Origin: Sinohyriopsis cumingii
Lineage: Eukaryota; Mollusca; Bivalvia; Unionida; Unionidae
Length of the DNA: 64,000 nucleotides
Assembly (NCBI GenBank): GCA_028554795.2
Contig: CM068827.1
Span: forward strand, 143,667,751-143,731,750
Reading direction: 5' to 3'
Under the pieces are notes generated by a model. The model saw nothing but the letters and a program-made list of their open reading frames with translations, was not told the DNA's origin and ran no database searches. This document shows positions 907 to 60,045 of this stretch, piece after piece (the first letter of the stretch is position 1; each line of letters starts with the position of its first letter). The position numbers and the translations under genes are program-made.

Positions 907-3900
907 GTATGTAAGATTCATTGGTGGAGAAATACACTTTATTTCACTCCAAGACAAGTTGAAAATTTTGCTGGACAAGTGAAATTGCTACTTGTCCAAA
1001 ATTGTATTTTCATTAAGAATTACAGCTACTGGTCTTTGCTTAAAGGAGACCAGAAACCAATGGAAATATAGAATAATAATAAAAGTACTATAGCAGAAAA
1101 CCTTATTCTGAAGTATCATCTGTGACCGTAATGCCAATATTTAAATATTGGCCTATCTTCTAGGAGCTGAATTTCCGTGACCTCGTATGCAAAATTTCCG
1201 TGCCTATTCGGTTACTTTCGGGATGTGACATCATAGTAGCGACTCCAGCAGCCCAAGTGGGAGTCACCAGAGTGAAAGACAATACCGTTTTGCGTTGCTT
1301 ACGGGTGTAATAGAACATTAAGAAAAGCCTGTTGACATAACAAAAATTCTTTTCCCAAAGATAAAGGCATAATGAAAGAATGGGTACATTATTACAAACG
1401 AGTTGATTTCAAAGCAACACCATACAGCACTATGTGCTCGTTACATTTCGCAAAGGAATGTTACGAGTGGGATCATGAAAAATAGCAGCTCAAAGATACG
1501 CAAATGCTAGGCCTAGACTAAAAGTTGGTGCTGTTCCAGACATACCTTTGGACATTTTAAATCCTGGGAAAAGTGTTAAATGTGTGAGTTATGAAAACAG
1601 GCAGAAGGACGAGTAAGTGACCACAAAATGCAACAATCAATCCACATCTTTTATCTAAAAACAGCAGTGCTTAAAACAAATCTGATAGCCCGACACCCTG
1701 GGCCCCTTCTGGTTTTAGTTCCAGCCCATCCTGTATTCAAAGTGAGGTGCCCGTCAGGCTTGTCGAAACAAAAATTGTGTGCCTGAGGAAACTTTGATTG
1801 CGCTGGTGAAATGAGTAAATGTATTTTCAAGATGTTGACATACATGCCTTAACACGGCACAATCTAAATCAAATCACCACTGTCCTAGGTGAAATTTAGA
1901 TTTGATTTTAATCAAATGGAAACTTTGCTAAAAATAAGGTTCTAAACCGGTCGTGTTTCGAGAAAACACAATGTTAGCAATCTTATAAAAATTAAAAAAT
2001 TTTTTTTTACAAATGCATTGTATACATGTATGCATAAACTGCAATCTGTAATAATTGGAACTGATATAAAACTATTCCTTGGGCAGTTTAAAAAGCAGCG
2101 ATTGAAAAAAAGAGGTCAAAGTTTCACATTAACTGTCTGACAATAGAACTGGGGGGGGACTATTGATCCCCCACCCCACCCCCTTGCCCCAATGTGCCAC
2201 CGCCCATTTTGACGTGCCTTTTCTCCCTGTGATACGCCTTATTATTCCCCCATGACAAGCCCCTTTTGCATATTCTGGTCAGTTCTAGCTAAATTGCAAA
2301 ATAGCTAAAGTTTTGATTTAAGTACGCAAACGATAAAGCCGATGTGACTAATGAACATAATCCTTATCCTTGCATTGATCTTGTGAAAAGGACTGCCCTT
2401 CGGACATACTTCAAAGAAACCATGTTCGACAGTGTGTGTATGCGTAAGCACCAGCAATTGATTACCAAATAAACGATGCCTATTTTGTTATTACTTACGA
2501 TGCCATGGACTTAATTTTAAGAGTTCAAATCTGCAGTCACAAGTTACCGTACTTGTGGCAACTGTTTTTCTCACGTTTTATGTCCCACCTTATTTCCTTA
2601 GGTTTAAGTCTTAATGCATGTAACACTGTTTGCTGAATAAAATATTTATTCAGAATTAGTTCTTTAGGGCCACATATACTGCATGGTATATTTTGTTTTA
2701 TTCCTTGTAATTTAATCATGATAATTAAACTTTTCATATACGGTAGAGGAATGTCAGGTGTTAACTGGCCGAGTTTCTTTGGCGGAAATGGAGATGCGAT
2801 TTTGTTTGCAGAGAAAATTTCAAAGTGATCATTCATTTAAGCTAATTGGTGACAATTTTATTCTTTTAATTTTTTTTAATACTATAGTACTGTTGTAGTT
2901 GTTTAAAAAATATCTGAAATTTACTTGAATAATGTTTAATCTTCACGTTCTATTTACTGAAGCTAAAAAAAAAAACAACAAAAAAAACTGTTGTATGATA
3001 TTAATTATTTCGTCCAGGGCCGGTTTAGACGTGTGTGCATGTGATTTGAATTTTTAACGTAGCTTTAACAATTTTTCAGTCATATCGCTACGATGTCTGC
3101 AGTGTGGTAGTTTAGACTGTGGTTTGGGGTTGGGTTTTTTTCTTCTGACAAATGAAAATTGACAGACATAATGTAATAATCGGGACTTCGCTGCGCAAAA
3201 TTGAGAGATATTACGAGATCGGGAGGTAGATGAGGAAATACCCCCAAAATCGGGAGGTTTTTCTCCCGGCTTGAGAGTTGACTGGTATGAACTGTCCGGG
3301 CTTGTGGAATTTCATTCAGGACTTTAGTTTATTTAAGTCACCAGCCCGGAGCCTGTGCCTAACAAATTTCTTTTATCACTTACCAGTACAGCACATAAAC
3401 TATTATATCAGATTGCAGATTCAACTTTTGAATGTGCAACCCAAATGTGGTCTCCTGTCTGCCTCGCTCGCCAATGTTTATGTTTGTATTCGAGGACTGG
3501 CTAGTATAGTGTCACAGTACCACGTGATCTGTCGTCTCATCAAAACTCGGAAAAACTCGGCAATTTACGGAATCGTGGTATCTTACACGCAATATAATCA
3601 CTACCCGCTTACGATATTTAATTTATAAGCATTGCAGTCGAATTAAAATCTGAAGAGAATTACATACGTAAAAGGAAAATTTTGATTTCTAGTCTCCTTT
3701 AAGTTTATACAACTTCTAATTCCGGGCAAGTTTAGGATTTTCCCAGCAATATAGATTTCTGATATAGTTAGATATAAAAGGAAAGATTTTTCAATACGCT
3801 TTGAAAATTAAGGTCTGAGGGCAACATTTGAACTTAAAACAGAATGTCCATGGTATATAAAATGATAGATCAAAACAATAAGTTTTGAAAACAGTGATCA

Positions 3901-5534
3901 GGGTTTTCAACAGATGTGTACCTTTGGGTTTTGACATGACATGTGCAATGTAAAAATGACCCATTTTTGATTCGCGGAAATTTTGACTTGTGCTTCTTTT
4001 TGATGCACGTAGATTTGGGCTGGAACATCAATCTTAATTGGGGCCCCGAGTGGTCTAAAGCACTCTCCGTTATGGATCACTGCCATCTCTCCTCTGTCTG
4101 CGCCGGTTCAAGTCTCAGATTCAGCCAGTGTGGGTATGTGAGAAAGCTTGCCAGTAGCTTCTCATGGGTCAGTGGTTCTTTCCGGGGTTTTTCCATGGTT
4201 CTTCCTCCACCATTAGTACTGGCTGCCATGTATAGCCTATCGTGTGCTGAAAAATGGCGTTAATCCCCACAACAACAACAACAATCAATCTTACTTACCC
4301 TTGATTTGCTTCCAGCTTAGTTTCTTACCAAGAGTGCGCTGTCCAAAACAAATTTACTGTAGGAGGCACTGATTGACATCTGTTCGACAATAGTTTAGAC
4401 CTTGAAGCCCAAAAATATCGTACCAAAGGAAGATATACATGAACTGGGCAGAGCTACCAGTTCACTAAAGTCAGGCTTGGATTTAACTGACTTAGGTTGG
4501 ATTGTTTTGAGATTACGTTTGAAGTTTGTGATAGAGGAAGAGGAAACAATTATGAAATGAATGGATTACCTTTTGATCAAATATCAGCAATGGTATGTTT
4601 GGACATCAGATTATAATTAACTGGTCAGAACTGGAGTATATCATTATGGCGGCTTGCATAGCAAGTTGTCAACAGAAGTGGACTGTAATTGTTTTATTAG
4701 CAAGTTGCTTCATTTAGTGGATGTTTAAAAGTTCGGAATCATTTATGACTTCAGTGGATTCATTTCTGATAAAATATCAGCATTTTTTTTATTGTGCTTT
4801 AAATTATAATCATTTAGACAAAGTGGGAATATATGGCATTTTGCTAAAGCAGTTTTTGGTGTGGTATTGTATTTTATTGGCAATTAAATTGCTTAAATTG
4901 GCAAAATGTTCCATACCTAGAACATTTTAATTAATGGATCAATCGGAAAAAATTGAAAGGACATAACACTCAGTGCATACATCTGAACTTTAAAATCACA
5001 ATGGCGCAAAGAAGTATATTTTCTTTTCTGTCTCTGCCTCAGAAATGACCTGGTGGTGATTAATTTTTTCACCCTTAGACTCCAAAGAATTTGCATCACT
5101 ATAAAAACGTAAAAACCACAATTGCATTATTCTAATATACAAAGAAGGAATGTAACTTGTGAAAGGAATCATACTTTTCTGATTATTGAATTCGCTGATG
5201 AATTTACTAGTACCATAATTTATCTTAAATTTGTCAATCTCATATTTCTCATCTCATATTTAAGTTTAAATTTAAATATAAATTTATTTAAATTTGTCAA
5301 TCTCATATTTCTCATCTCATATTTAAGAAAATTTCTCATCTCATATTTAAGAAAAGATATCATGAGCATGTATGTGTTTCTAACAGACAATGGAATTTAG
5401 TATTTTAATACTAAACATGTTAAAATAAACAGTAATTATTGCCATCTTCATATAATGTGCATTGTTATACTCTCCTTAAGAGGGCCTCAAGGGAGAATAG
5501 TCCTTGACTAATGAGTCACCCTCTATAAATAAAG

Positions 5535-5570
<36 letters not shown>

Positions 5571-8500
5571 CAGCTCTGAGGAGAATAAGAAGAGTAAATC
5601 TCTGAAATTTGAAAATTTAAGGACGATTGGAAAAGTGAACTGACAATTCTGTGATGTACGTGCTTGATATCTGAGTAATATATAACCTTCATAGTTGTAT
5701 GGATATATATTTGCATATAAAATGATTTGAGCAGTTGATAATAGAACATGTTGAAAGTTGAAAATATAATAAAGTATAAAATAATCCTCTGTCTTTCATA
5801 TACAAAATATACAGACAGTAACATAGAGAAACATTTTTACAAAAATGAGATTGTATATTTCTTACAAAATACTGCTTTGCTAGTTAGTAAGTTTGGTTAG
5901 ATTTGATTTAGGAAGTCATGGAAACACTATGGATAGGTGGTAGTGAAATATTCTTTTTTGTATTTCAGGAACATGACAATGACACTGATAACATAGATTT
6001 CATTTTGGGAATAATAAGTCGTCTTCATGATGAACTGGCCTATTATAAAGGTAAGGAGGTGTAACACATTGTGAAGTTTTCTGCCATATCATTTTCTTTA
6101 TGTAGACCAGACAAGCTTATGGGATAGCCTGTTGTCTGCTATTTGTCCATCCATCAACACAATTTTTTATGACTATTCCATGAAACTTCACACATTCATT
6201 TCCAGGTCTGGTTGGTCCTAAATGGTGCCACAGCGATGTCTTTTATGGTTGCAACAGGAACTAAATGTGAAACGATTCATCGATATTTTGATGCATCAAT
6301 ACTTTTGCTGTAATGATGCATATATAGATGTAAGTGGTGGAAAATTGATAAAAAATTATTTACTGTATGCAGTCATTTGTCTTGTTGCCTTATTTTTTAA
6401 ATTGAGAATTCATCTGAGACAGGTATTGCAGGCACATTCACCCATTTATATTAGTTGTATATAAAAGGACATGATAACATTCACTTGCCATCTACAAATT
6501 AACACCAAGTGATGTGGTTCATAATACTACCCCCACTCCACCAATTCCATGGTAATTATTTTATTGCAACAGCTTGATCAGCATAAAGTATTCAGATTTT
6601 CCTCTGACCCTTACCGCCCCATTTTTTTATATTTGGATATTTTATGTCACAGGGTGGCTGCTTACTAGCCGGACTAGCAAACTTTAATGCCCTTTTCAGG
6701 CCATACCTGCATGAAATCAGTAGGAATATGATTTAGTTTTTCAGAAATTGTGAGAGAGTATAATATGTCTTTGATCTGTTGACAGATGAAATGAAACTAC
6801 AATGTTGATGAAATTTGACATGGAACTTGCCATATGCACTGCTAGTCACATAACATAAATGGTTGTTAAACTAAATTTTATTGGTACGTTGTGCCAGGAA
6901 CAAGTATTATGTCGTAATTTAAACTTGCATCAAGCAAGTTCTACAAATGCATGTTTACAATATGGGCTAATCAGAAAACCCAAAATGGCAGGTTCACAGT
7001 ATGGTTCATCTTCAGATGAGGATTTTTGTTGGGCAAATATAGACTGACGATTGTTATGATGGCAATAATTTTTAAAGATATGAAGTATATCTGATTATTG
7101 GAGCTGGGAAAAGTGCTAATGGAGATACCAGTGAGTGATTTTGAGTCCAAAAATGGTTTCAAATATAAGTCTGATGTATATGCTGGATGGGTAGGAATAG
7201 ATGGCATGCTGGATGGGTAGAAAAGACGGAATGCTTTATGGATAGAAATAGACGGCATGCTGGATGGGTAGAAATAGATGGCATGCTCGATGGGTAGAAA
7301 TAGATGGCATGCTGGATGGGTAGAAATAGATGGCATGAAATAGATGGCATGCTGGATGGGTAGAGATAGAAGGCATGTTGGATGGGTAGAAATAAATGGC
7401 ATGCTGGTCAATCACCCTTTCAGCAAATATAGTATAGAAAAGGCAGAATACCAAGCCAAATGAAAATAAATTCATTTGAAAACTAGAATGCAGTTTTCAT
7501 TTTTTTCTTTCTTAAAATTTAGCCATGCAGAATCATGAGCTACAAAAGTATATTTCCCTATTGTGGTTAAGATAAACTGAATAGATAAGATTGAAAAAAT
7601 GATATTAAGAAGTAAAGATGTTTTGATCAAATTATCTCTGTCTGGTGGCTAAAGTGAATCCTACATCTGATCAGATGGAGCAGCCTTATTATATGGTCCA
7701 AAATGTTGAATAAAAATCACTAACAGCTACCAGGTAGTTTCTATGAAAGTACTTTTGTCATAGATGAGATTGGCATATAAATTGGTGCTGGGTAAATGTC
7801 TTTAATCTGCATACTGAAAATACAACCAGTAAATCAATTTAAGGGCACCACCTACCACTGACAGACCTTCTAAAGATGTAAAAACCATCAAGTTAATATG
7901 TGTATTGATAATGTATTTTATCGTAGGTGGTGTGTCATGGATCATATAGATTTGTGTCACATTGGTATAATTTCACACCTAACAGGAACCATCTTGAACA
8001 GCTTATTGCTACTTTTTTTTAATAGATGTTGATAAGACCTCCAATATGGCCATCATGTTGATAAGACCTCCAATATGACCATCATGTTGATAGGACCTCC
8101 AATATGGCCACCATAGTTCTCATCTTGAAAATCTTGCCACTCTACCTAAATGGAGGGTCATATCAAATGGGTTTTTTGCCACTGACGGTCTCAGTGAGAA
8201 GGTAGATCTCCCTTCCAAGGAATCACAGTTAAAGCGGACAGCCTCATTGAAAGCCAGATTCCTCAGAGTAATTAACATTTACCATTCATTCAAATCGTAT
8301 TAGTAAAAAAGAAAAAGCCAAGGGATGATGTTATCTGGAAGAAAAATTGAATGATATTCAGCCATATGGAAAGATCAGACTTAGCTTTAAAGATACAATA
8401 CAGTGTTGTTGTTGTTGTAGGATTTAACACCATTTTTCAGCACACGATAGGCTATACATGACAGCCAGTATTAATGGTGGAGGAAGAACCCAGGAAAACC

Positions 8501-11500
8501 CCGGAAAGAACCACCGACCCACGAGAAGCTACTGGCAAGCTTTTTTAGATACCCACATTGGCTGAATCCTACAATACAATGAGGAGCCCCGAGTGGCCTA
8601 AAGCGCTCGCCGTTACAGATCACTGCCATCTCACCTCTGTCTGCGTGAGTTCGAGTCTCAGGTTCGGCTAATGTGGGTACATGAGAAACCCTGCCATTAG
8701 CTTCTCGTGGGTCGGTGGTTCTTCCTGGGTTTTCCAGGGTTCTTCCTCCACCAATTATACTGGCCGCCATGTATAGCCTCTCGTGCTGAAAAATGGCGTT
8801 AAACCCTACAACAACAACAAACAACAACAATACAGTGATTTGACAAAGTACACATGCAACTTTAAAATTATTAAAGTAGTAAGTTTTGTTGGCAGTGACA
8901 TTATTGTATATATATTCATGTCTATATTTATTAAAAATTCTAACTTTATTTTAAATTTTATAGATGGACTCAACATAAAGACCAAAAAAAAGGTTTTAGA
9001 ATTTGACTTCAAATGGGGGGAGTAAGTTCATTTTAAGCAAGCCCCTGAATTTGTTTTAGAAAGTTCTTCAAAACCACTGAAAAATTCCCAAAATGTATTC
9101 TGTCATAGTTTGTATGAACCAATGTATTCATACTGCTGTCTTATAAATATTTGGAACTTTCTGTGAAAATCCTAGGAAAATCACAGTGTGCATTGTTCCA
9201 TTCCATGTCATTTGGGAGAGGAGCGTTTTAAGTTGTTTTTAGTCACTGACCATGTAATATTTCAGATCTGGAAGATCATTCAGGTAATTTTTATAAAAGC
9301 AAGTTTTTGCCATGCTTTAGATGCTGTGGTCACTAGTATATTCATTCATGTAATGTGTTCTTTAACTGTTGTGCAATTTCTGTCACACAGTCCTAGCTTA
9401 GTCATTACTTTCTCTACAGGAACAGACATTTTCATCAACTCTGTTCTGCCTAGATATGATAGTCCTTTCAGTGATATCTGAGTCTGATCAATAGCAGTCA
9501 AAACCAGTTCAGACACGGCATCACTTGAATCTTGATGCAAATAGAACCGGGTTACAGTATCTCCCTAACTGGGCCCTGCATCGTGGACATGGTACTGGAA
9601 GGAAATAATGACCCTGTTCCTTCACGACGAGATTTGCATATATACTCTACTATTGAGAGCATTGTTGGTTCATCTGTTATGTAAAACCTGCTTCCTTGCT
9701 AAAGCCAGCATGCTGAATCAGTCAGATACATGCCTTGTTGGTTAATCTGAACAATCTAGCATGATATTTTGATTTCACTTGTGATGATCCTTGCTTTCAT
9801 GGTCAGCAATAATGTTTCCAGTTATGGGCAATTTGTCAATGGAATTTTTGTTTCAGTACCATTTACAGGACCTGGTGAAGGCCTTGAAGTGGTACCTGAA
9901 TGACTGAATTGGTGCAAAGAGGGAGATCCATTTATCTATACCTTTGAAAAAGGAAAGGTTGATATCTCAGCTGAAGTTCTATCAGCCTGTATAAGATGGG
10001 TTATTCACTCTGCATACAGACAGCTCTAAGATCAAATGAACTTACTGTGCATTTCAGCTCATGAAGCTAGGGCAGTCACCATGAGCATAGCATTCAAGGG
10101 CACCTGTTACCTAACAGATATGTAAGATGAGGGGCAGAGATGACACTTTATTTTTCTGGGTTTCAAATTTTGTATTTTGGGTAAAAGTACATACTCTTGG
10201 TCATCTAATTTTGTGGATCTATCATTTACAAAATGAAATGGCCTCCAAAACAATGCATATGTCTCTGTAAACGATTTTATCAGCATTCATGCATTGAAAG
10301 CAAACAGATGTGATCTGTTCCGCGGTTATTAAGTTGTTCAACTAAATGGCTAACATGTGGCATAAATGTGGAGATCTTGAAGAAAATGTCTTCTTTTTTC
10401 ACACATGTCCAAGTTAGCACATTAAATACCACCGTTTTAATTAGGTGCTCATGTTTTCTTAAAGAGCTCTATCAAAGCATAGAGTTCTCAACAATTAGAG
10501 ATCAGGTGCTTGGGACAATGTAAAACTCTTTTGTCCAAAACAATTCTGCAAAATTGCCTGATAAGAACCCATTATTGTTGATGACCTTGAACTAGTCCAA
10601 AATTAGATCTAGAAAGTTCTGATGTATGCCCATGGTATATACAGGGATGGTCCTGGCTTTTAAAAAGCTGTTGCCAAAAAAATCGCCAACCTCAATATTT
10701 TTTCACCAATTTTCAAAAAGTGTCGCCAGAACAAGTAGTGTACAGTTTTTCAAGTGTTAATTTAGTCTATTAATGTAACAGGCAATGAAAATTACAAAAG
10801 ATGGGTTAGTTAGTACTCTAATTACAACAAGCATTAACAAAATGTTACAAAGTGTTACATGAAGATCCGTTGCGATTTTAGGGCTGCCCACTTGTTGAAT
10901 ATAGTTTCAAAGTCTAATTTTTCACATCTGTACATGCTGATTCTCATTAAATTCTCGAGAGATGAGATGCAGAGTTTATTTCTGATGTCAGTTTTTATGA
11001 GGTTCATCTTACTGAATCCACGTTCACAGTCTACAGTGCTGACAGGTGACACCAGTAGTCTCTCAGCAGCCCCCCCCCCCACACACCTTATGGCTATCTT
11101 CACAAAGCTTGAAGTGAATTGCTTCCTAATTCCCAAGAATGATCACAGAATGCTGTATACATTTTCTTGACAAGCAAAATAGGATCTCCATTCCCACGAA
11201 TGAAACTTACACGAGTCAACACCTGGCAATATTGGACCGTATATATAAGCATAAATTCACACCCAATTTAGGGATTCTTTCACTCCTGTATTTTGAGAAA
11301 TAAATAATTATTATTAATTATGCAAAACTGTTGGTTTTTTTTTGCTATTTCTTGTTGCAGAGTTTAAGTCGCTGCAGCCGTAACGCAGATTGATGGCAAA
11401 AGGAAAAGATCAATGAGTAAAATGCTGCACTGGCGACAGATATAATTGTGATTGAGATTTTTTTCCATTTGCTTTGTATTTATACGCAGTAGTCGGTACT

Positions 11501-14500
11501 TCAATGGTTATCAGTTTTCTATAAAGGTTCATCAAAACTAATGTATTGGTATGTGTAAAAAAAAAAACAACAGAAGGATTAGCCATTCATTTAATTGTAT
11601 CTGTTCTATTTGCGTCTTCAGAAGTCGGTCAGTTGTAGGTATAGTTTGGTAGCATGATTGACTGTATCACAGCATACAGTACTCAGCCCAGATGTCAGCA
11701 TAAGCAGATTATGATGTAACAATGCACTGTAAATATGGGGTTGTCAATACGAACAAAGGATCGTTTGTGTAACAGATTGATTCCAATGCATTGCTTAGTC
11801 AAGTTTGTGGCTTCCTTTCATTCTCTCTTTTAATTTATCCAGTCCAAATCCATGATTGTATGTACAAATTAAATAACCAAAAAGTCTGTCACCAAAAAAA
11901 TCGCCAAATGGGATATTTTTGTCGCCAATAAGGAAAAAAAATCGCACTTTGCGACATTGGTGAAGCCCAGGACGATGCCTGGTATATAGCACATATCTTT
12001 GCTAGTGCTGAAGGAATTGTTACAGAATATGCAACATTTAAACTGCAGAGATAAAAACAGTGGAGATACACACTATGATCAGGTCTTCGTTGACCTGAAA
12101 ACATCTACACTTAAGCCAATTGATGCAAAGTGCCTTATCTACACACATGACAAAGTAGTACTTTGAAAGACCTGATTGAAATGGGCTTTGAGAAAGCGTG
12201 ACTAATCTGCTAATTGTTTACTTAATAGTATATGCACAATTTATATATAAATGGATATTATATGTACTTTGGCAAATAAAGATGTACGTGGACAGCAAGT
12301 AAATCTGCATTTATTACTATACATCATGTGGAGTCATTACAACCCTTCATGCTGATTAAATTTTGTGCATTAAAATTCAAATTAAATTTAAATCAATTCC
12401 AGCTCTGATCATTATTCAGGTACTGATCTTTATGTATATTTCACATTCTCAGTACTATTATAGAGGCCAGTCAGCATGGTAGATATTTTGTTGTGACTTT
12501 AAATTTGTGGTCTAGCTCACCCCTAAAAACCATGAAAATTGGAACCCATTGAATTTAAAGTGTTTCACAGTACCTCAGAGATCCTTGTCTGAAGGGATCA
12601 GTTTGACCTGGTGAGATCTACTGCAGCGGTGCAACATACTACTGTACCTGCATAGGTCTTTGGGCAGCTTCTTTAGTGACACATCTCACATGATTTAAGC
12701 TGCAGGGGGATGGGTTATTCCTGAGCAGCTGCATCTAGGCACACGGGGTCACTTTCTTCAGCCTGTATATATGTCACAAGTTGCAGCAGGCTCACATACA
12801 GTGTACCATAGGGAACAAGAGATGGGCCTTCTCCATGGTAAATGATGCAAGTCCACCACGTCAACAATAAAAAAAAAACCCATTTTACTCCAAAATTAGG
12901 CATGTCAGAAAATGCACCATGTTGTCCATCAATGCATTTATTCATTTTTATTTCATTTTATTACACAGGAAAGTATGAAATGGGAGAACTATCCAGTGGT
13001 GAAACAGCTAGGTGGAGTGAGGAAAGGTACAAGAAATTTGTGGAGAATATGATCCCCAGTAAGGTAGATAAAGAGGTATATATATTTGTTGACTCCAATG
13101 CTACAGCTCTCCCCTGTTATAAAGCGATTCCAGATATAAGATGGTACCACTATGGACCCCATGACCAAAATAATACCAGTGTATAACAGCAAGGGTTGAA
13201 AGAAAACAGTGAATCTTTGTCTTGTATTTTTTATTTTCAAAAGGGCAACATTTAACAAAGTTCTGCTAGACCATGGTTCTGTATACTTAAATATGTCATG
13301 GTTTCTTAGATATCACAGTTCTCCGTATAAAACAGTTTGGTAAATAACATAGTCTGTGGTAATGGATGCCAGCTATTGCATTATGCATGGGAGAGCAGTA
13401 GCTGTTACTACAGTTGGGCATATATTTTTTTTTTTATTGATGTTTGTCACCCCCTTCCTCCTATACAAGGTCATCCATCTGTGATTAATATAAGTATGGT
13501 TTAAGAAGAGATGTGGCCGATTATGAGGTGCACAGTAAAACAGATCCACTTCTTTGATGAAGGAATATGTGGCCTCTTAAGAGATTGAGAGGAGGTGGGA
13601 GTGGATGGGACAGAGATGGGGAAATCTGCATTTTCAAATTAACAGAAGGTGCCCCAAGTGGCTGAGTGGTCTAAAGCACTCTTTGTCATGGATCAATGCC
13701 ATCTTACCCCTGTCTGCATGGGTTCGTCTCGGGCTCGGACAATGTGGATATGTGAGAAAGCTTGCCAGTAGCTTCTCATGGGTCGGTGGTTCTTTCCGGC
13801 GTTTTCCTGGGTTCTTCCTACACCATTAATACTGGCCACCATGTATAGCCTATCTTGTGCTGAAAATGGCATTAAACCCTATAACAACAGCAACAACAAC
13901 AAATTACCAGATAGACTTGAAAATATTTCATTATATTTCCCAAGTTACAAGTTCTTGGTTTGGAATTGCTTTATCTTATTTTTATCATCTAAAAGTTTTA
14001 ACCTTGGTTTTTAAAGTTTTTAAGCATTAATTATGTGAAGGCTAGTTCTCTTTTCTTATCACAACCTGAAAATGATAAAAATATTGCTGATCTAACATCC
14101 AATATGGCTGTAGTACTGGCAGTCTTGAAAATTTTATTGCTACTCCTCCTGAATGGAAATCCATGTGGACATGGGAGTTTCCACTGTGGCAAATTTCGGT
14201 TTGAAAATCTTGGTATACCGTAGCAAAAGAATATCAGAGATAGTTTTCAGCACTCAGTATTTGAAAAGAAGAGACACATGTATCTTGGATTTATATATGT
14301 GCTTTCTTGTGTTTAGCCAGTGTCACAACTTTTCATATTGGTCTGAAAGTTTGCCGACATGACTTGGCTCAGGAAAACCACTTTCCTTATACTGACTGTA
14401 TGAAGGAAAACTTTACTTCTTACTGATGTTTGGACCAAGTAGATGCTGATTCTCTCCTTGAATAATACTTCGTTCTCTACTCTTAAGAAGTGCTGAAGTT

Positions 14501-17500
14501 CAACATCACTAAACATCTAGCATGCATCTTTATCAATTTCTTTTGCCTGTTTTAAGTCATTGTCAGTCCAAACATGTAAGAAAAGCTTTTTCTTTTCTAG
14601 TTAAGTTCCCATATGCAATCTTGACACCCCACTGGTCCCAAATTCTGTGAAGATAGCAGTGTTGTACATAAGATCCGAAGGGCAGGGGATATCTGTCTCC
14701 CAACATACAGATTTTTGGGACACACATTTTAGAGGGACAAAGGGAAATAATTAAGAGTTTAATATTGTTTGTTTTTTGTTCTGAGATTATTGTGTATTAA
14801 CCGTCAGCTGCCGAATCACAAAGCAAATAAAGCCTGAAGGATGTTGTGTAAGATCTGTGAGTCAGCAATTTTCAGCTTGGCCTGATCACATGGTTATGTT
14901 CTGACCAATGAAAATCTTTGCTACAATTACCAATGTAATTATAATTATTAGAACTACAAAAAATAGTTTTAATTTGGTTCTTCAGTTTTGCTACCTTAAC
15001 TTTGTGGTTTCCACTGTACTATGATAATCTCCTTAGACACTTACATTATTGCATTAAAAGTTTTATAATGTGCTGAAGTAAGTTTTGAAAATATTAACCT
15101 GAAATGAGTTGCACTATGGAATTTTCCACTCCATATCTTGCTGTCATTTGATATTAGTGCAAGCTGATTATCTGCCAGCATTTTTTAGAATAAATACCTG
15201 TTTCCTAAATGACTTCTCTTTCCAGACTAACAAATCATCTATTAAATTACAAAATGTGTATTTACTTAGATTTTGTCTGTTTTGCCATTATTTCAACCTC
15301 AAAATAATTCAAATTGTCCTTACTGTAGAGGTGATATTAATCTTGAAAATAAGTTACACTATCAGCCGTTAAATGCTTACATTGCAACTCAGCTGACTAC
15401 TACAAACCTTAAAGGAGACTAGAAATCAAAATTTTCCTTCTACGTATGTAATTCTCTACAGATTTTAATTCGACTGTCATGTTTATAAATTAAATATCGT
15501 AAGCGGGTAGTGATTTTATTGCATGGAAGATACCACGATTCCGTAAATTACCGAGTTTTTCCGAGTTTTAATGAGACGACAGATGACGTGGTACCATGAC
15601 GCAATACTAGCCAGTCCTCGAATACAAACATAAACATTGGCGAGCGAGGCAGACGGAAGGAGACCACATTTGGGTTGCACATTCAAAACTTGAATCTGCA
15701 ATCTGATATAATAGTTTATGTACTGTACTTGTCAGTGCTAAAAGAAATTTTTTAGGCACAGGCCCCGGGCTGGTGACTTAAATAAACTCAAGCCCTGACT
15801 GAAATTCCACAAGCCCGGACAGTTCATACCTGTCAACTCTCAAGCCGGGAGAAAAACCTCCCGATTTTGGGGGTATTTCCTCATCTACATCCCGATCTCG
15901 TAATATCTCTAAATTTTTCGCAGCAAAGTCCCGATTATTACATTATGTCTGTCAATTTTCATTTGTCAGAAGAAAAAACCCCCAACCCCAAACCATTTAT
16001 AAATAGATATAACGTATGTAATCCACAGTCTAAACTGCCACACTGCAGACATCGTAGTGATATGCCTGAAAAATTGTTAAAGCTACGTTAAAAATTCAAA
16101 TCACACGCACACACGTCTAAATCCGGTACTGGACAAAATAATTAATATCACACAACAGTTTTTTTCTTCTTTAGTAAATAGAACGTGAAAATTAAACATT
16201 ATTCAAGTAAATTTCAGATGTTTTTAAACAACTACGACAGTACTATAGTATAAAAAAATTAAAAGAATAAAATTGTCACCAATTAGCTTAAATGAATGAT
16301 CACTGTGAAATTTTCTCTGCAAACAAAATCGCATCTCCATTTCCGCCATAGAAACTCGGCCAGTTAACACCTGACATTCCTCTACCATATATGTAAAGTT
16401 TAATTACCATGATTAAATTACAAGGAATAAAACAAAATATACCATGCAGTATATTGTTCAGCAAACAGTGTTACATGCATTAAGACTTAAACCTGAAGTC
16501 CATGGCATCGTAAGTAACAACAAAATAGGCATCGTTTATTTTGGCAATCAATTGCTGGTGCTTAAACATACACACACTGTCGAACATGGTTTCTTTGAAG
16601 TATGTCCGAAGGGCAGTCCTTTTCACAAGATCAATGCAAGGATAAGGAGTTATGTTCATTAGTCACACCGGCTTTATTGTTTGCGTACTTAAATCAAAAC
16701 TTTAGCTATTTTGCAATTTAGCCAGAGCTGACCAGAATATGCAAAATGGGCTTGTCCTGGGGGAATAATGAGGCGTATCACATGGAGAAAAGGTACGTCC
16801 CATGGGCGCTCGCACATTGGGTTGGGGGTTGGGTCAATAGTCCCCCCCCCCCCCAGTTTCTATTGTCAGCCATTTAATGTGAAACTTTGACCTCTTTTCT
16901 TTTAATCGCTGCTATTTAAACTGCCCAAGGAATAGTTTTATATCAGTTCCAATCATTTCAGATTACCGTTTATACATACTACATGTATACAATGACTTTT
17001 TTTTTAAATTTGTAATTTTTATAAGATTACTGAAAATTGTGTTTTCTCGAAACACGACAGCAGGTTTAGAATATTATTTTTGGCAAAGCCTCCATTTGAT
17101 TAAAATCAAATCTAAATTTCACCTTGGACAGTAGTGATTTGATTTAGATTGTGCCGTGTTAAGGCATGTATGTCAACATCTTGAAAATACATTTACTAAT
17201 TTCACCAGCGTGATCAAAGTTTCCTCAGGCAAACAATTTTTGTTTCGACAAGCCTGACGGGCACCTCACTTTGAATACAGGATGGGCCGAAACTAAAACT
17301 AGAGGGGCCCAGGGTGTCGGGCTATCAGATTTATTTTTAGCACTGCTGGTGTAGATAAAAGATCTGTGAATTGATTGTTGCATTTTGTGGTCACTTACTC
17401 GGCCTTCTGCCTATTTTCGTAACTCGCACGTTTAACACTTTTATTATTCAACGTTATGTCTGGAACAGCGCCAACTTTTAGTCTAGGCCTAGCATTTGCG

Positions 17501-20500
17501 TATCTTTGAGCTGCCATTTTTTCAGGATCCCTCTCATAACAGTCCTTTGAGAAATGTAACGAGCACATAGTGCTGTATGGTGTTGCTTTGAAATCGACTC
17601 GTTTGTAATAATGTATCCATTCTTTCATTATGCCTTTATCTTTCGGAAAAGAAAAAAAAATGTTGTCCACAGGCTTTTCTTAATGTTCTATTACACCCGT
17701 AAGCAACGCAAAACGGTATTGTCTTTTACTCTGGCAACTCCCACTTGGGCTGCTGGAGTCACTACTATGACGTCACATCCCGAAAGGAACCGAATAGGCA
17801 CGGAAATTTTGCATACGAGGTCACGGAAATTCAGCTTCTAGAAGATAGGCCAGTATTTTAATATTGGCATTACGGTCGCAGATGATACTTCAGAATAAGG
17901 TTTTCTGCATTAGTACTTTTATTATTATTCTATATTTCCATTGGTTTCTGGTCTCCTTTAAATGTTTTCTTTGCCAGATCATTGTTTTAAATAAATATTG
18001 CCATCTTACTTTCATGACTTTGGCCATTGATAGAACTAGAGACATGGATGGACATTCATTACTGATAAGCACATTGAGTCCAATATCCATCTAATAGTGT
18101 ACAACACTGTGACGGGTCCAATACCCATCTAATAGTGTACAACACTGTGATGGGTCCAATATCCATCTAATGTTGTACAACATTGTGACGGGTCGAATAA
18201 CCATTTAATGTTGTACAACACTGTGACGGGTCCAGTACCCATCTAATAGTGTACAACACTGTGACAGGTCCAATACCCATCTAATAGTGTACAACACTGA
18301 TGGGTCCAATACCCATCTAATAGTGTAAAACACTGTGACAGGTCCAATACCCATCTAATAGTGTACAACACTGTGACGGGTCCAATACCCATCTAATAGT
18401 GTACAACACTGTGACGGGTTCAATACCCATCTAATAGTGTACAACACTGTGACGGGTCCAATACCCATCGAATAATGTACAACACTGTGACGGGTCCAAT
18501 ACCCATCTAACAGTGTACAACACTGTGATGGGTCCAGTACCCATCTAATAGTGTACAACACTGTGACAGGTCCAATACCCATCTAATAGTGTACAACACT
18601 GTGATGGGTCCAATACCCATCTAATAGTGTACAACACTGTGACGGGTCCAATACCCATCGAATAGTGTACAACACTGTGATGTGTCCAATACCCATCTAA
18701 TAGTGTACAACACTGTGATGGGTCTAATATCCATCTAATGTTGTACAACACTGTGATGGGTCTAATATCCATCTAATGTTGTACAACACTGTGACGGGTC
18801 CAATAACCATTTAATGTTGTACAACACTGTGACGGGTCCAATACCCATCTAATAGTGTACAACACTGTGACAGGTCCAGTACCCATCTAATAGTGTACAA
18901 CACTTTGACGGGTCCAACACCCATCTAATAGTGTACAACACTGTGATGGGTCCAATACCCATTTAACAGTGTACAACACTGTGATGGGTCCAATACCCTT
19001 CTAATAGTGTACAACACTGTGATGGGTCCAACACCCATCTAATAGTGTACAACACTGTGATGGGTCCAATATCCATCTAATAGTGTACAACACTGTGACG
19101 GGTCCAATACCCATCTAATAGTGTACAACACCGTGATGGGTCCAACACCCATCTAATAGTGTACAACACTGTGATGGGTCCAATACCCATCTAATACCTG
19201 GCTGCTTTTATAATTATATAATAAGAGACATGATTTGTATACTAAATTGAGAAATTGTAGTTTCACCTCTGGCCTGTTTATTTCTTAATGGTATCATTTT
19301 TGTAATGGTATTTTTGCAGTAATCAAGGCTTCATTTTAATACAGAGAACTTTTCTTTCTCAGTAAGTTATCTTACAAACTATGAGTGAGACATTTGACAA
19401 GAGATAGAGAATGTGAACATTTTTGTGATTTATTTATTTCTGACCTGACGGGGTGATTTTTGCCACAGGTTACCAGTTTTTTCAAGGCTCCGCAGCTTTA
19501 TTGATACATTGTCATGCCAATGTGAAGACACCAGCAGATTTTTTTTAAAACTCCTAATTACCTTTTACAAGAATAATGTTGCTAACTTGAGATGTATTTA
19601 ATTAGGAGTGAAAAGATACACCTTTGCCATGTATCGATACAGTTCATGAAATGCACCTTAGGATACATTAATGATATACATATCAACCTGATGGTCTTTG
19701 CATCTTTTGAAGGTCTGTCAGTGGTGGGGTGGTGCAGTTTTATTTGTGTTGTCATCTTAGTTCTATTTCCAATATGCAGATTACAAACAGGCATAGACAT
19801 ATCTTCATATGCCATCCTTATCGATGTCAAGTTAAGAAGAACATTACTTCTAAACAGACTACCTGCTAGTTGTGAGTGATTTTAAATTAACCTTTCAGGC
19901 CATTTCAGGCTGCTCCATTTGATCAGATGCAGGTATCCTGATGACCACCACACCCTTCATTTTTCTTGGCATGAATGCATTAAAAATCTTATTTCAAGTT
20001 TTCATTTGAATTTTGAAGGCATGACAGTATTTTCTTTTATAAAAACAGAAATATAGTGCAATGTGTTGGTGCAATCATATCTTATCTAGAACAATTCTGG
20101 GTCTTGGAGCGGAAATAACTAGCAATCAGATCCATCAAATTTCACTTACTGGAGATGCAAAATGACTGCAGTGGCCACAGCCACATGTTTTTGTCATAAG
20201 AAAGAAAGAAGAAATTTTCGACAACATCCACACCCTTTCTATAAGTGGACATAGTGAGTATAACTCATGTGTGTAGAATCTAATTCCTCGCCAATTCTGA
20301 GCAATTTTTTATTAAAAAAATCTGTCAGTATGGTCAGTTGCCAATTAACATAGATAAAGTAAAAGAAGACATTCCAAACTTGTTCATATACAGCTTAAGT
20401 GCTTTATTGTTCATTTAATGGCCACTATTGAGTGAAGCTTTTGTTACTTTTGACCATATCTACCTATATATTGGGACACCATAAATGAATATTTAAAGGA

Positions 20501-22493
20501 ATTTTTTTGTTCTGGGACACGTTTTTTTTCCTGTCGTAAGTTGTGAGATGCATTTAAAATCATTTGAAAATTACCTGTCAGAAAGTGCATTCAAACTGAA
20601 ATTTTATTTTAAAAAAATATTAAAGTGTGCTTGAGATAAAACACTTTAATCCACTGCGGCATCTTCTCAACAACCCAACCCTTTTCCTGCACAATAATGA
20701 GCCATATTTTTGGTGCATGAATATGTTTTAGCTTCATGATGTTGTGCAAAAAAAATAATTGGAGACAACGCATCTCCTAAAGCGGAAACTGCAAGGACTA
20801 AAGTAACCCATGCTAGTGAAAAGATTGTCATTGCACTCACATGTGATCCATGCTTTCGATGCTTGAATATTCTTTAGCTTCCTCATGCCAGGAAAAATTC
20901 TCCTGAAGCAGACACTGCAAGGACTAAAGTTTTGCAGTAAGATTTGTTTTTATCTGCACCAGTTGTGCAAATTCTCACTTTTTACCCTCTACCAGCCTAT
21001 CAGGAATGAGAGCAAAGTACACCAGAGTTTTATCCGTGTTAATGATCATATTGTTGGTGAAATCATGTTCTATTCTGGCCTTCTCTAAATTCATCGGCTG
21101 ATTTTATTTTTATTTTCTCCTCCAAATCTTCTGGGAAACTTGGCCCGATTAAAAGAATCCATAATCATCTTCTGAGGTCAGCTTGCTTTGTAATGAAATA
21201 AGCTTTGTATTTGATATCCTGTTCAAACAGCAAGTTTTGCATCTGTGCCAGTTGTTTTTTTTTCACCACCTGGGCTTCTCTTAGCTTGTCATAATCATAT
21301 TTGATACAGTCATTGATGTTTACAGGGTAAATAATATATACAGCAATAACTTGCTTTAATAATACTTTATGTATCCATGCTAGCGGAAAGATTGTCATTT
21401 GCACTCACAGTGAATGTATTTTAAAATGATTTTTATTTGCAAGGTACTGTCATATAGTTAAACTGGACATTTTGCTTTGACTGGACAATGTATAAATAAA
21501 GCGGCAAAGTACTAAAATAATGATTTGGTAAAATAACAGTTTGACTACATAAAAATAATTTTTAAAAATATTTTCTGGTTATTAACTTTCCACAAGTCTA
21601 ACTCCTAAAGATGTATGATAGCTTGTTGCCTTCAAAATGTCTCCATATCTCCATATAAAAACTATGTAGATTACTGAAAACCATCAAAAAAAACTGTCTG
21701 ATAGTTGTGAAACCTTTACAAACTTCTTCTCCTATTATATATTAGTGTTGTTCCGATTATCGGTTATAATTGATCATCAGTTGGTTGAGCAAACCAATAA
21801 GATAATCGATTGTGAAACTCCATAATCGATTATGTGTAAAGGGAGACTACTTTTTAGTTGTATGCAAAGCACAAAGGTTAGTAAAACTCCCAGCCACTAA
21901 AGTTGACCTGAAATTTATTAATACCCTTCACAACTACAACTATAAAACCGTATGATATTTATTAGGTGCATAATTTCATAATTAGGAACATATAGCCATT
22001 ATTGCATGATCAAGTTGTTAAATAGTTGAGTTAATAAATTTAAACACACTTTGATGATTTGTTTCAGTTTTAAAAGCAACATTATTTGTAGTATTTGTAA
22101 ACAATGACAAACAAGAAAACCATGTCCCTCTACACTTAAAATTATAGACACATCACATATGACTGAAAGAATTTTGGGGAATTGTAGCAGTATTTCAGTT
22201 ACATATGACTTATCAGCGATAAAAAGTTGTGTTCATTTAACAAAGATGTAGAACAAAAATAACACACAACACAATAGACAAAAATGTTATATTATTATCA
22301 GGTTAAAGTATACATGTCATTAAAAGAGATTACTCCTGTACATTTACTAACATCTTGAACTATTGATCAAATATATAACTGAATAACAAACAAAAATTAA
22401 AATTTGCTCTTAGTAACTGATTATAATCGATTATCAGTTGGTTAAGTGGAACCGATTATCGATTATGAATTTCTGACCGATTCCCATCACTAT

Positions 22494-22551
<58 letters not shown>

Positions 22552-25500
22552 TTAAAACTTGTGTCTTCACTCCAAACATTTTTGGTATTAAGTTTGTATT
22601 GAGTGCCTGTGATAATTAGTAAGAGCATAATAATGTCATGGATGCTTAAAAAAAACTTTCCCTGAGCTCAGCATTGATAACACAAGGTTAGCATGCACAT
22701 GGCCTTCTTTTGTCACACTCTAATGCATATTTTAAGCAGAGTTATGCCCCTTGCTTTGGTGAATTGTTATGAAACTTTGCAGATATTATTGGTGTGAAAT
22801 CTACTTGAGAATTGTTTCTATAATCGTTCTCAGATTCAATTTTCCACAGTTGTTTTTTGACATTAAATGGGGGTAGGGATGGGGAGGCATCTGTGACTAT
22901 TTCTAGTTGAGATATATTATACTTCCCTTCAACAGCCATCCAGCAGATGTCTGATAAAGAGATTTTATTACATGCTTATGTTTTAGTTTTCATTTTGACT
23001 CCCTTTTTTTAGCAGACTGTTGATAAAATGCTTGAGAAGATCTTCACTTTGATTCTGAAACACAAAGACTGGAATATCAGGTATGGTTAAAAATATAATT
23101 TTGCTACTTGACATATAACATTTAAGTTCAAACATATTTTATTTAAAAAATTGTACATGGTGTAAGAATGCTGTTTTTCTTTTTTTATATGCAGGGAATC
23201 AGTTTCATATTTTAAATACATGATCAAAGCATTTGATTACATTTATATAAAATCTGTCTGTTATTATAAAACACGTATTATATTAAGCACGCATTTATTT
23301 TGAGGTTTTGAGTTGAAATACCTGTGTCAGCAGTTACTTTTATTGGTCTAGATCAGGGTTGTCCAGCTTGTGACCCATGACCAAGAATCCAGCCCACCAA
23401 AAGTTCCTGTTTGGCCTGCCATCCATTCATAACTGGTTGTGGAAAACATAAGCCAAGTTAATGAAAGAGACAAAAGAATGCAATTTGGTCCCTAACATAA
23501 AAAGGTTGGATGCCCTGGACTGGATCATTCTATTAGAAGTTGCAGATCAGCACTAGACTAACAAGTGTCCCTGCTTTTTTATATTTATTGTTCCAATCCA
23601 CTCGGGGGGAAAATAAATAACAGTTTTACAGATTTTGCACACATGTGCAAACCAGTCATGTCGTAAAGTGTTTATCTCATTGCAGTCTTAAGCTGTGGAC
23701 AGTTGGCTCAGCATTACATTTTCATTACACTGTATCGTGATTGGGATAACAGAAGTATTGTTGGATGGTACAGTGGAATGTGTATTTGTAGAGCAACTGA
23801 GGTTGCTTAAATTGTCCGGTTTTCACTGCCACTTCCTTTTGAGTCCTCCACCCAACAACATCATTGGTATCACACAAGGGAGTATCATCCAGTTGATTTT
23901 TTTTTTATTGCCAATCATTTTCAACTGTTTACATGATCATACTCGTGTCTCTTTCAAATCACCAGCATCAGTCATTTTGTACATGTGCTGTGATTTTGAG
24001 AAAGACAATTATTTCATCTGCTGAAGGAAAATTTACAAAATTTCTAACAGTCCAAAATAAGTATACCTGGAAATATTAAACAACTTTTTTTTAAGGAATA
24101 TGTTTATATTGTGTTAGAAAGAGGTTTGCTGAATTAATAAATGCAAACTGTTGCCAAGATGTGTCCAACAGAATGTATCTATGACAGCGCTAAGATATGT
24201 ACATTTAATTTCTGGAACAATTGTTAAGAATTTTACCTTTTTCATTTAGGTTTGCATTTATTCATTTTTGTCTCATTGCAGTTTAAAGTTTTTTGAACAT
24301 CTGGATGGCAAAATAAATGCAATCAGTTTTCATTGTCCCGCATTTCATTTTGTTTACTGTGTCAGTTTGAAAATCTGTTTATTCTCATTCTCTTTCATTA
24401 TTATTATTAAAATTATTATTATTATTATTGTTATTATTATCTAGCTTGTTCTTTGTGAACTAGATTTTTCCTCATGAGATTCCTTTTTTTCACAGTGTTT
24501 TCTTTTCATTGTTTTTTATGTTAACTATGAGCAGTCAGATTACTTTACCTACTAAATGATTTGAATTAGAAAATTTTATCTCATTGAGATTTAGTTCTAT
24601 TCGATTGTATACAGAAGAGGGCATATGATGTCATACATCAATATTCAAGTTCATAGTGTCGATCTATGGAATACCAGTTAATGGTACCACATGACATAAC
24701 TATGGGTTATCAGAATTTAGGACACATGGCATAACCATGGGTTATCAGAATTTAGGACACATGGCATAACCATGGGTTATCAGAATTTATGACATGGATA
24801 AGTACGGATGTAAAAGCTGTCATCGTACAATAAACATGAATAAATGGGCAGATCCCACCACATGGCTCATGCCTTTTACCTTTACAGAAATCTTTGCCAT
24901 ACTTAAATAACCTTACTGACTTTATGAGTTTAGTGCAAAGAAGTTCTCTTTTTACTTCCAATGTCCCTTTTTCAGAGTATATGATGAAGATGGTGCAGAA
25001 CAGCAATCTTGGAAAAATGGAACACAATATCAGATCGAAGCAGCCTTACCATATTTGACATTTTTCCAGCGCCTCAGTCGCTCCTTCTACAAAATCTTCA
25101 TGGCTTTTCTTCTTCTTATAACATGTAAGTAATGTTTTCTCCATTTACAGGCCTCTTCTTGTTTTGATATTTTTCATTATAGTCTAACAAAATATGATGA
25201 AGGATGTACAATTTTCTTGCAAGATTGTAAAAACAATCTCCACACGGTAGTTAAACACAATTGTAAAAAAGGAATGGTTTGTGAGATCACTTTGCATTCA
25301 CTGTGTACAGTATTTGACATGAAAGTAGCGCTGTTGTGTTCTTTCATGACTTGGCTGTATCTGTAATTTTTGGGACCCTGCCATAAATATAGGAGAGTAT
25401 TAGTTTGCTTATCCATCTGTCATTTACATACATACTGAGATTCTTGATTGTGTGATCACTCCTGTATTGTAACTTTACGCATATTATTGTAGTGAACTTG

Positions 25501-28500
25501 TGAATGTGGTCTTTTTGTCATGCTCCTGTCTTTTCCATAGTTATGCCCCTTTTTGGTGATTTTTGTGTTCAGCTAGTTCAAGACCTTTTGAGTATCTGAC
25601 CAAAACTTTATAGTAATGATTGAAATGGGGTGAATATCTGAATGTGATCATGTTGCCCAACACCCATGTTTTTTATGGAGTTATGCCACTTCTTTGCTTT
25701 TGTATATAGTGTACATAATTATTGTGTGTGTACAACTAGTCCTACACCTTTTGAGAATTGCCCTGAAAGTTGGAAGTCATTAACATGATGTGGAAGTGGT
25801 TTTGTTATCACATTTTGATACATTTTTTCAGTTTTGTATCCTTGTTCAGGTGTATTAAATGTGATGTTATATATGTCATAAATTAATTTGTGTGCAGCTA
25901 ATCCCACAAGTTTGGATGAATTGCCCTAAAACTTGGTCCACATAATTGACATAAGGTGAACATCTGAATGACATTCCAATTTTTGTTAAAATTGTCCCGT
26001 TTTTTAAAATCCATTGTTAATGTTCTTACGTGTGTTCATACAGCACAAGCAAGTGATTTTTTTCTAGTTGAGTAGTTGCTCACAAAATGTAAATTTAGTT
26101 GACTAGTTGTCTATCTAAATTTCACCCTCCAACCACTCACCCCCAGATTTTTTGTCAGCTGAGCCCCAGATTTTTTGTCAGCTGAGCACATAGTCTCAGG
26201 AACAACTGTTTGATAGATTCTCACTCAGTATTGAGCAATCAGCAACAGCAAAACACCTGTCAGATTTTCGTTGTCAAAGAAAAATTGTCAAAGTGTGTTG
26301 GAAAACTTGTGGTAACACTATAAACTAGCCACCGTGGAAGGGGAAGTTTTCAAAGCTGCTCATAAAATGGAAGAGCATATTGGGCAGACCATCTGTCTGA
26401 CTGCAAGCACAGATTTATTTTCACTGCTGACCTTAACTACTTGGAGTGTCACCATGAAACTTGGCACACAACTTCAACCCAAAGTCTAGCTTGTCATATA
26501 GTATTTGCTTCCTGTCCTGTTTGTACCCCCTACTGATTTTAAAAACGAAAATCATTAAGGATATAAAAATGCACAAGACTTATTCATCTCATTCATTATT
26601 ATATAATTTATAACCAGATTGTTACCAGGGGGTCCATAACACTGTCAACTTATTGGCATTTCAAACCAAAATTTTCTATATCATGATTCATATTAACATG
26701 GTCGAGTCAGTGTTTTCAGGCAAAAGATGTGATGTATTTCAGTTTTCACTAAACTCTGAATAATTCCATAAATTTTGGATTTAGTTCTCTTTGAACATTT
26801 GTATACAAGAGCTACTACATTTTATTTGTTAATGTTATTTTTGAAACATGAAAACTTGAGAATTGTAAAAACAGGTAAATAGCAAATACTGTAATACTTT
26901 TTATGGAGTATACTATGTACGTATCATTCTGTTTGTCTGACATACATCTTGCATGCAAGTCTGGATTTATCAGAGTTGATGGAGCTAAAATCTTTGAAGG
27001 CAGTTTCTGATACCATCAGCTGGCTAAAATTCATTGGCAATAACAATGGATATGTCCTGGCGTGGAGATAACAAAACTCCGAGCTTGATTCTGTCAGTGT
27101 TCTCAGCATATTTATGTATTTGTAAGCAATAAATAATAGATGAATGGTTCCTGTTTGCGAAAAATTGCTAGTGCTCATGAATACCACTTATATAAATTGA
27201 TAACAGTATGCACCAGTGTGTTTGCACTGTTGGTCATTTAAACTTTTGTTTTCTTTTTGTTGGGGTATTTTTGGGGTGGGTGGTGGTCTAGACTGATTTA
27301 AATGAAGCATAAAACCTTGAAGAAAAAAATCCTGCCTTCCAAGGATAAGAAATATTTGAATGGAGCTGCCATAATACCAATTTGTTCATCTTTGGTTTCA
27401 AAAGAAAAGTAACTACATATATACTTTAAGGAGTTGTTTTCCTTTGAATATAATTTTGATCTTTGTACAAAAAAAATTACTAAAAATTTAAATATTTAAA
27501 TAACAAAAAAATATTACTTTGCCCCATAATTTGATATTTAATTCTCTTTGCCAGGGTTCATTCTAGGCTGTGGCCTTGCATGAATGACCATTATTTTTCA
27601 TCTTTGATACATGAAAGTACCTCATTGGTGCCCATCAGGTTCATAAGAATACCTAAGAAACTACAGATAAAAGATCTTTCCAGTAGACTCTAGACTGAAA
27701 CAAAGATCTTTCCAGTAGACTCTAGACTGAACCAAAGATCTTTCCAGTAGACTCTAGACTGAATCAGAGATGTTTCCAGTAGACTCTAGGCTGAATCAAA
27801 GATCTTTCCAGTAGATTCTAGACTGAACCAAAGATCTTTCCAGTAGACTCTAGACTGAACCAAAGATCTTTCCAGTAGACTCTAGACTGAACCAAAGATC
27901 TTTCCAGTAGACTCTAGACTGAATCAAAGATCTTTCCAGTAGACTCGAGACTGAATCAAGGTCTTTTTGGTAGACTAGACTGAATCAAGGATCTTTCCAG
28001 TAGACTCTAGACTGAACCAAAGATCTTTCCAGTAGACTCTAGACTGAATCAAAGATCTTTACAGTAGACTCTAGACTGAATCAAAGATCTTTTTGGTAGA
28101 CTAGACTGAATCAAAGATATTTCTGGTAGACTAGACTGAATCAAAGATCTTTCCAGTAGACTCTTGACTGAATCGAGCACATCCCAAGCTTACTGAATAG
28201 AGTGCACTCATTTGCATAGAATCATACGACAATAGATTTCATTGGTTTGCCAATTCTGATTAGGTTTATCACCAGTCAAGAGTGTGTGGTGGTTCAATGA
28301 TAGAATATGTAAAAAAGAGAAGATGAAATATTCAGTGAAAACAGTGTTGCATTTATTTTCAAATGTTGACTCATCTGTAAAAAAATAAATGGAAAGGAAT
28401 GAATTCTTGAGCATGAAGAATTCAAATCCCACCATGATTGGGGATGATGATACTGAATGCAGGTTCCTGCGTTACAGATTTATTAATTTCTGCAATAAAT

Positions 28501-58900: not shown

Positions 58901-60045
58901 TTCTACTCATGTGTGTGTGTGTTAACACAACAACAACTAATTAGGGTTGTGGCTGTTGACTTTGTATACCAAATAGTATGACAGCATTTGGAAACTCCTT
59001 TTTTTAGTTCATTTCTGAAAATGTGCATGCTAATCAAATTTTTTTCTATTACTGTGTATATACCATGAAGCCCTACTAAAATGCAGATTTAGGTAAACCT
59101 TTTTCTTTGTGTAAAATGAAACCTGTTGTAGTCATCTCTTCATTACAGATGTCAAATGTATGTAAAAGTGTTAGGTAGATTAAGGTTCTTTTTACATTCA
59201 TTTAACTTAGGAATAACATTGAAAAAGTAATGGGGGGATGCGGATTTATAATGTATAAGTTTCTAGAAAATTTCAGACAAAAGCTGAAAGGAGATTTTTG
59301 CATTGGGAGATACCTTACATTGGGAGATACCTTTATTACCAAAAGCAGAAAATATTTAAATGTATATGAACTTTGTCTGCACAGTTTTGTAAGCTTAGTA
59401 AGGGACCTTTAGACGATTGTCTTTCTAAACTTCCTTTTTCTGCATCTCTCCATTAAATTTTTTAAATTTCTTTTACTATTGCCTATTAAAAACTTGTTTT
59501 CTTCTCATATTAGGGAAAGTGACATGGACTGGGAGAATGATCTTGAGGAGGTCATTTTAGAAAAGTGCAAGAACAACAATGGGATACTGCATATCTATGT
59601 AGACAGGACTTCCAAGGAGGTAAGATGTCTCCACCTGTTGATGCCTACATTAGGCTTGGCTCAAACCTCTCGTACAGTCACCTTGATTTGCATCTTCATC
59701 AAGGTGTAGCTCTATTAAAAAGATAGTGATGTTATTGTATATAGTAGTTGAAAAGAATTTATTATATTGGTCATATCAGATGCTTACCTACCTGTGCACA
59801 AAAAAGGACCCACATCTGCTGGTAGCAGATTCAAGTTAGTATTGTTCGCTAAATATCACTTATAGAATAAACAGCAATGACCCCTGGCTGCAAACAGCAG
59901 ATCTGGATGTACCTTGTGCGGAGCTGGCTTTTCATTACATTCAAATTTGACTCAGATGTGCCAGCACATAAATGTTGGCAGATCTGGGTCCGCATTTTGT
60001 GAAGTTGGATATGTATTATGTATAAATTTTATCCAGATGGGCCAG

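Follow-up and report, generated by a model that had tools for sequence, protein, structure and literature searches.

Two oppositely oriented insertions of a high-copy, probably Kolobok-type non-autonomous transposon family in Sinohyriopsis cumingii

Results

Two similar elements bounded by TTAA

The window analysed here, a stretch of 64,000 nucleotides of Sinohyriopsis cumingii (assembly GCA_028554795.2, contig CM068827.1, positions 143,667,751 to 143,731,750), carries two long elements, copy 1 and copy 2, which are very probably insertions of one high-copy, non-autonomous family of Kolobok-type DNA transposons. The first-pass annotation, made from the sequence alone, had described two inverted copies with matching termini, each bounded by TTAA and 11.7 kb apart, and this description was borne out by a terminus scan and an alignment. 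The scan of the window with the pattern TTAAAGGAGAC, allowing at most one mismatch, revealed four places, all exact, which mark the outer ends of copies 1 and 2 (Table 1). Four sites are unremarkable by number, since 7 of 100 shuffles reached four at one mismatch; their weight comes from where they stand, as each terminates one of two long elements that resemble each other.

Copies 1 and 2 were 93.6% identical over 2,498 aligned bases (Kimura two-parameter distance 0.067), with 77 transitions, 82 transversions and 220 gap columns. The likeness stopped at the TTAA and the flanks were unrelated. The terminal inverted repeats AGGAGACCAGAAACCAA and AGGAGACTAGAAATCAA are 17 bp long and match at 15 of 17 positions. 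Because only 0.9% of the window positions start a TTAA, its presence at all four ends of two separate insertions is far beyond chance. When the window was scanned for TTAA-RR...YY-TTAA pairs whose end bases match at 13 or more of 16 positions, four pairs came up, against 0, 1, 0, 0 and 0 in five block shuffles. Two of the four were the window copies and one was a weak pair at 22303-27429; the pair 3643-15468 was rejected as an artefact built from internal sequence of both copies.

The family in the genome

In the 2.9-Gb assembly from which the window comes, the 17-base terminus, counted with both variants, had 903 + 930 exact matches; these 1,833 correspond to a copy number of at least about 900. 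TTAA directly preceded 1,762 of them (865 + 897; 96%), the four window termini included, and a reversed control pattern gave no match genome-wide. The earlier annotation had held that termini found across the genome without TTAA flanks would speak against Kolobok; the reading survived this check.

Loci L031-L066 were chosen for their likeness to copy 1 or to a THAP frame and are thus not a random sample. Among 20 places read whole, 17 contained a copy of 2,616-2,698 bp, counting both TTAA; L039 (2,811 bp) and L045 (2,947 bp) were longer through insertions, and L034 had no right end. TTAA was present on both sides in 18 of these 20 places, the right side of L042 being TTAC. Over L031-L066, where 3 of the 36 rows are redundant (L035 and L036 have their flanks in common, and the places of L033 and L047 recur as L055 and L061), TTAA stood on the left in 35 of 36 rows (CTAA in L053) and on the right in 20 of the 22 rows having a right end (exceptions L042 and L063). 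The alignment of 18 copies comprised 16 places and the two window copies, with L034 (truncated), L036 (shared flanks), L039 and L045 (insertions) omitted. The copies differed from its consensus by 1.5-2.5%, copy 1 by 2.3% and copy 2 by 4.7%.

The pairing of ends over the first 100 of the 1,762 TTAA-flanked places yielded 41 end pairs: 27 of 2,441-2,683 bp, 10 of 2,865-2,971 bp, which form a further size class around 2.94 kb, and four of 1,627, 1,828, 5,080 and 16,530 bp. Judging by their mutual identity of 98.5-99.3%, the copies L063-L065 probably moved recently. Locus L048 held two family members head to head (1151-3828 and 3878-4867) with about 50 bp between them, the second being partial. 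No description of the family was found in the open literature, and Repbase or Dfam may well list it.

Proposed assignment to Kolobok

The assignment draws on published Kolobok features: 5'-RR/YY-3' termini, which separate Kolobok from piggyBac (PMC9587614), and the TTAA target, the AGGRR terminal motif and THAP (PMC6004289). Kolobok has also been reported in bivalves (PMC10294476). TTAA duplications were found on both sides of both window copies and genome-wide, and both copies end in AG...CT, that is, RR/YY. A THAP domain, which in Kolobok belongs to the transposase, was recognised in an exon that is broken and has no transposase attached. As no DDD/E transposase domain with the Kolobok signature was recognised in the six frames of either window copy, these elements are not autonomous Koloboks. 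The Kolobok identity proposed in the first-pass annotation fits the target site and the ends, and it was narrowed to non-autonomous elements in which the THAP exon is dead and no catalytic domain is recognisable.

We infer that source elements keeping both ends and one THAP exon, with neither a usable start codon nor a recognisable catalytic domain, would move by cut and paste into TTAA, the Kolobok transposase being made elsewhere and acting in trans. A similar arrangement is described in PMC6004289 for T2-MITE and related non-autonomous Xenopus Koloboks, which likewise have a TTAA target, terminal AGGRR and no transposase; mobilisation by Kolobok transposases is presumed there as it is here. 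In contrast to T2-MITE, the window family is about 2.67 kb long, hence not miniature, and retains a THAP exon. The autonomous element XKol A2 from the same source (6.8 kb, left terminus AGGAGAAGGAAAGGCT) shares with the window copies the first six terminal bases AGGAGA, the TTAA flanks and a THAP domain with an AVP-type box, whereas the window copies have no recognisable DDE or H2CH part and a broken THAP frame. KolobokP of bivalves and other animals has RR/YY ends in common with the family but, according to PMC9587614, long terminal direct repeats and no strong target preference; the window family inserts at TTAA, and no direct repeat of at least 25 bp joins both ends of an element.

Two points weigh against a Kolobok origin. 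The search with the THAP frame gave 2,365 first-look candidates and 150 scored places, of which 16 loci (L051-L066) were read; no autonomous partner with the same ends was recognised among these, and blastn against the consensus placed all 16 in the family described here. Because no such partner was found, it is the ends, the target site and THAP that tie the family to a Kolobok transposase. The second point is the 5,080-bp copy (L067), where positions 962-1999 of the locus form an uninterrupted frame of 346 codons or more with no Pfam match; a literature search with the first letters of its protein gave no match either. This large frame is probably a nested mobile element, of which the left junction was seen, and the copy could yet be the autonomous partner.

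Coding content of the elements

The THAP finger noted in both copies by the earlier annotation was confirmed as a domain match, though in each copy the exon is broken. THAP (PF05485) scored above the curated Pfam cut-off in both (E = 2.1e-7 and 1.2e-9), and the frame of copy 2 matched chains from known structures of THAP1 and THAP2 (E = 9.1e-8, 1e-6 and 1.3e-4). The two exons are damaged differently (Table 1). The ATG was missing at the expected start in all 18 aligned copies and a TGA was present within the exon in 16 of them.

Little else was recognised. In the Pfam search of 12 translations (six frames of both window copies), THAP was the sole family above cut-off, with no transposase or catalytic domain; a DUF4046 match (E = 0.04) stayed below threshold. 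The approximately 2 kb downstream of the THAP exon contained no recognisable coding domain, and a 59-aa frame inside copy 2 (16486-16662, minus strand) had no family match. No frame of the 18-copy consensus was longer than 99 codons, its maximum, and no frame of at least 130 codons was present inside the three young copies L063-L065. Viral contigs yielded no relatives, whether searched with the THAP frame or with the TTAA-flanked terminus pattern.

All 18 aligned copies carry a fragment of about 80 bp that is common to the tail of a family resembling short interspersed elements (SINEs). As it was found in every aligned copy, this piece most likely entered the transposon before the family spread. 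TTTAGAC stands at both of its borders, a possible but ambiguous target duplication.

Possible RNA pairing between the copies

According to the first-pass annotation, the copies sit in different introns of one gene, on either side of two exons. Two putative exons between the copies, read by eye, are bordered by AG and GT and fit together in a single phase, giving 59 codons, with an alternative possible donor at 13059; neither had a significant Pfam or PDB match, hence a host gene spanning both copies is no more than plausible. The effect on the host is most likely longer introns and nothing more. Pairing of the copies in pre-mRNA, leading to back-splicing or skipping of these exons, is unlikely. 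It would be favoured by 27 perfect complementary runs of at least 30 bases between the copies, the longest of 82, and PMC8516420 reports that back-splicing is promoted by repeats that are reverse complements of each other. However, inverted SINE-like arms (4118-4283 with 8404-8568, and 8434-8565 with 13735-13866) could pair around one exon at a time, 8496-8566 pairs locally with 8663-8733, the exons are themselves putative, and the position of the pair is explained by copy number alone, as set out below.

A possible THAP-only regulator

The THAP exon might also have been retained for a small regulator that binds DNA: some of the young copies whose THAP frame is open over about 113 aa would then make a stand-alone protein that binds the shared ends and regulates transposition of the family. 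Of the 150 scored places, many had a stop-free frame of about this length, and 8 shared a score of 226 bits, though these places are biased to intact frames, as the query was read through the break and the best matches were listed. In one copy, L053, the frame begins with an ATG and stays open. Between copies 1 and 2, 8 synonymous and 11 non-synonymous changes were counted, a weak hint of purifying selection (P = 0.02-0.08, depending on transition bias).

Set against these observations are the start codon missing from every aligned copy and the divergence of the exon itself, which between copies 1 and 2 (29/317, 9.1%) exceeded that of the sequence after it (118/1,933, 6.1%) and before it (12/240, 5.0%). 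In addition, when L066 was set against the majority of L052, L053, L062 and L063, 20 of the changes were non-synonymous and 3 synonymous, counting those private to L066. The results on purifying selection conflict, and these sequence comparisons give no convincing constraint on the exon; such a regulator is very improbable.

PiggyBac and P

A piggyBac-type element, the other kind of TTAA inserter, is equally hard to credit: the target site is shared, but the ends (5'-AG...CT-3') lie on the Kolobok side of the distinction drawn in PMC9587614, and a THAP exon is present.

Target duplications of the P superfamily are 8 bp long. This superfamily was rejected, the duplication here being the 4-bp TTAA.

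Origin of the inverted pair

The Kolobok-type family itself divides into subfamilies. In a comparison of the window copies with 33 other sequences, the nearest to copy 1 was L031 (1.4% difference) and the nearest to copy 2 was L066 (4.0%); L031 and L066 lie on two further contigs, and the window copies themselves differed by 6.5%. Copy 2 and L066 have several THAP residues in common, among them KDCY, DITLN and KAE, for which the other printed exons have KECY, DIP and KDE. A deletion of about 85 bp was rejected as a clean subfamily mark, as it was present in 4 of 34 sequences (copy 2, L066, L039 and L062). By this comparison the two copies are separate insertions from different subfamilies, and a local inverted duplication was rejected. 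One insertion duplicated locally in inverted form would suit two members of the same family in opposite orientation 11.7 kb apart, but the unrelated flanks, the end of the likeness at TTAA and the different nearest relatives render it extremely unlikely. With the copies spread evenly over 2.9 Gb, simple arithmetic gives about 3 expected pairs within 12 kb, half of them inverted; since copy number alone predicts such pairs, this one requires no special explanation.

Features of the window

Table 1. Coordinates of the two elements, their parts and other features in the 64-kb window.
Feature	Position	Strand	Remark
TTAAAGGAGAC sites	1040-1050, 15409-15419	+	
TTAAAGGAGAC sites	3692-3702, 17951-17961	-	
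Copy 1, left TTAA target-site duplication	1040-1043		
Copy 1, non-autonomous Kolobok-type element (probable)	1044-3698	+	2,655 bp without duplicated TTAA
Copy 1, 5' terminal inverted repeat	1044-1060	+	AGGAGACCAGAAACCAA
Copy 1, THAP exon remnant	1282-1612	+	no ATG at expected start, in-frame TGA, frame lost later
Copy 1, splice-donor-like GTAAGTG	1613-1619	+	closes THAP exon
Copy 1, SINE-like tail fragment	3042-3114; wider match about 3030-3114	-	84-93% identity
Copy 1, 3' terminal inverted repeat	3682-3698	-	AGGAGACTAGAAATCAA, read on minus strand
Copy 1, right TTAA target-site duplication	3699-3702		
Putative host exon between copies	5969-6050	+	AG/GT borders, open frame, read by eye
Putative host exon between copies	12969-13063	+	AG/GT borders, phase-compatible with 5969-6050, read by eye
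Copy 2, TTAA target-site duplication, 3' end	15409-15412		
Copy 2, same family, different subfamily	15413-17957	-	2,545 bp without duplicated TTAA
Copy 2, same SINE-like tail fragment	16031-16115		
Copy 2, THAP exon remnant	17399-17719	-	no ATG at expected start, frame shift in T run
Copy 2, TTAA target-site duplication, 5' end	17958-17961		
SINE-like family of about 300 bp	30360-30656	-	
SINE-like family of about 300 bp	48420-48735, 57675-57991		
Second SINE-like family	4040-4290, 8583-8827, 13664-13900	+	
Second SINE-like family, inverted copy	8404-8568	-	

One copy of the SINE-like family of about 300 bp contained a tRNA-Pro call by ARAGORN (48661-48734, minus strand). Two hAT-like remnants were also noticed, both with matches below the curated cut-offs: a dimerisation region at 10855-11142 (minus strand; E = 0.0017), and a frame at 45193-45552 (plus strand) that weakly matched DUF4371 (E = 0.022) and also Nic96 (E = 2.1e-4). 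Directly upstream of the former, 84 bp (11161-11244) resembled transposon positions 2736-2818 with 74% identity. At 59413-59709 (plus strand) lies a probable exon similar to chains from known structures of Man1 (E = 2e-7) and RBM39 (E = 1.9e-6). Minisatellites are abundant in the window (42 tandem-repeat rows), and an array of 29.5 copies of a 38-bp unit (18078-19196) starts about 120 bp past copy 2. At locus L065, outside the element, a 584-codon open frame (4027-5778) had no significant Pfam match.

Discussion

The pair in the window consists of ordinary transposon relics of a known type, and its conspicuous inverted arrangement is what copy number alone would give. Should the THAP-only protein exist after all, it would mean that a 'dead' non-autonomous element has its own regulator. 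The analysis adds one well-delimited, high-copy family of non-autonomous elements, mostly of 2.4-3.0 kb and very probably of the Kolobok type.

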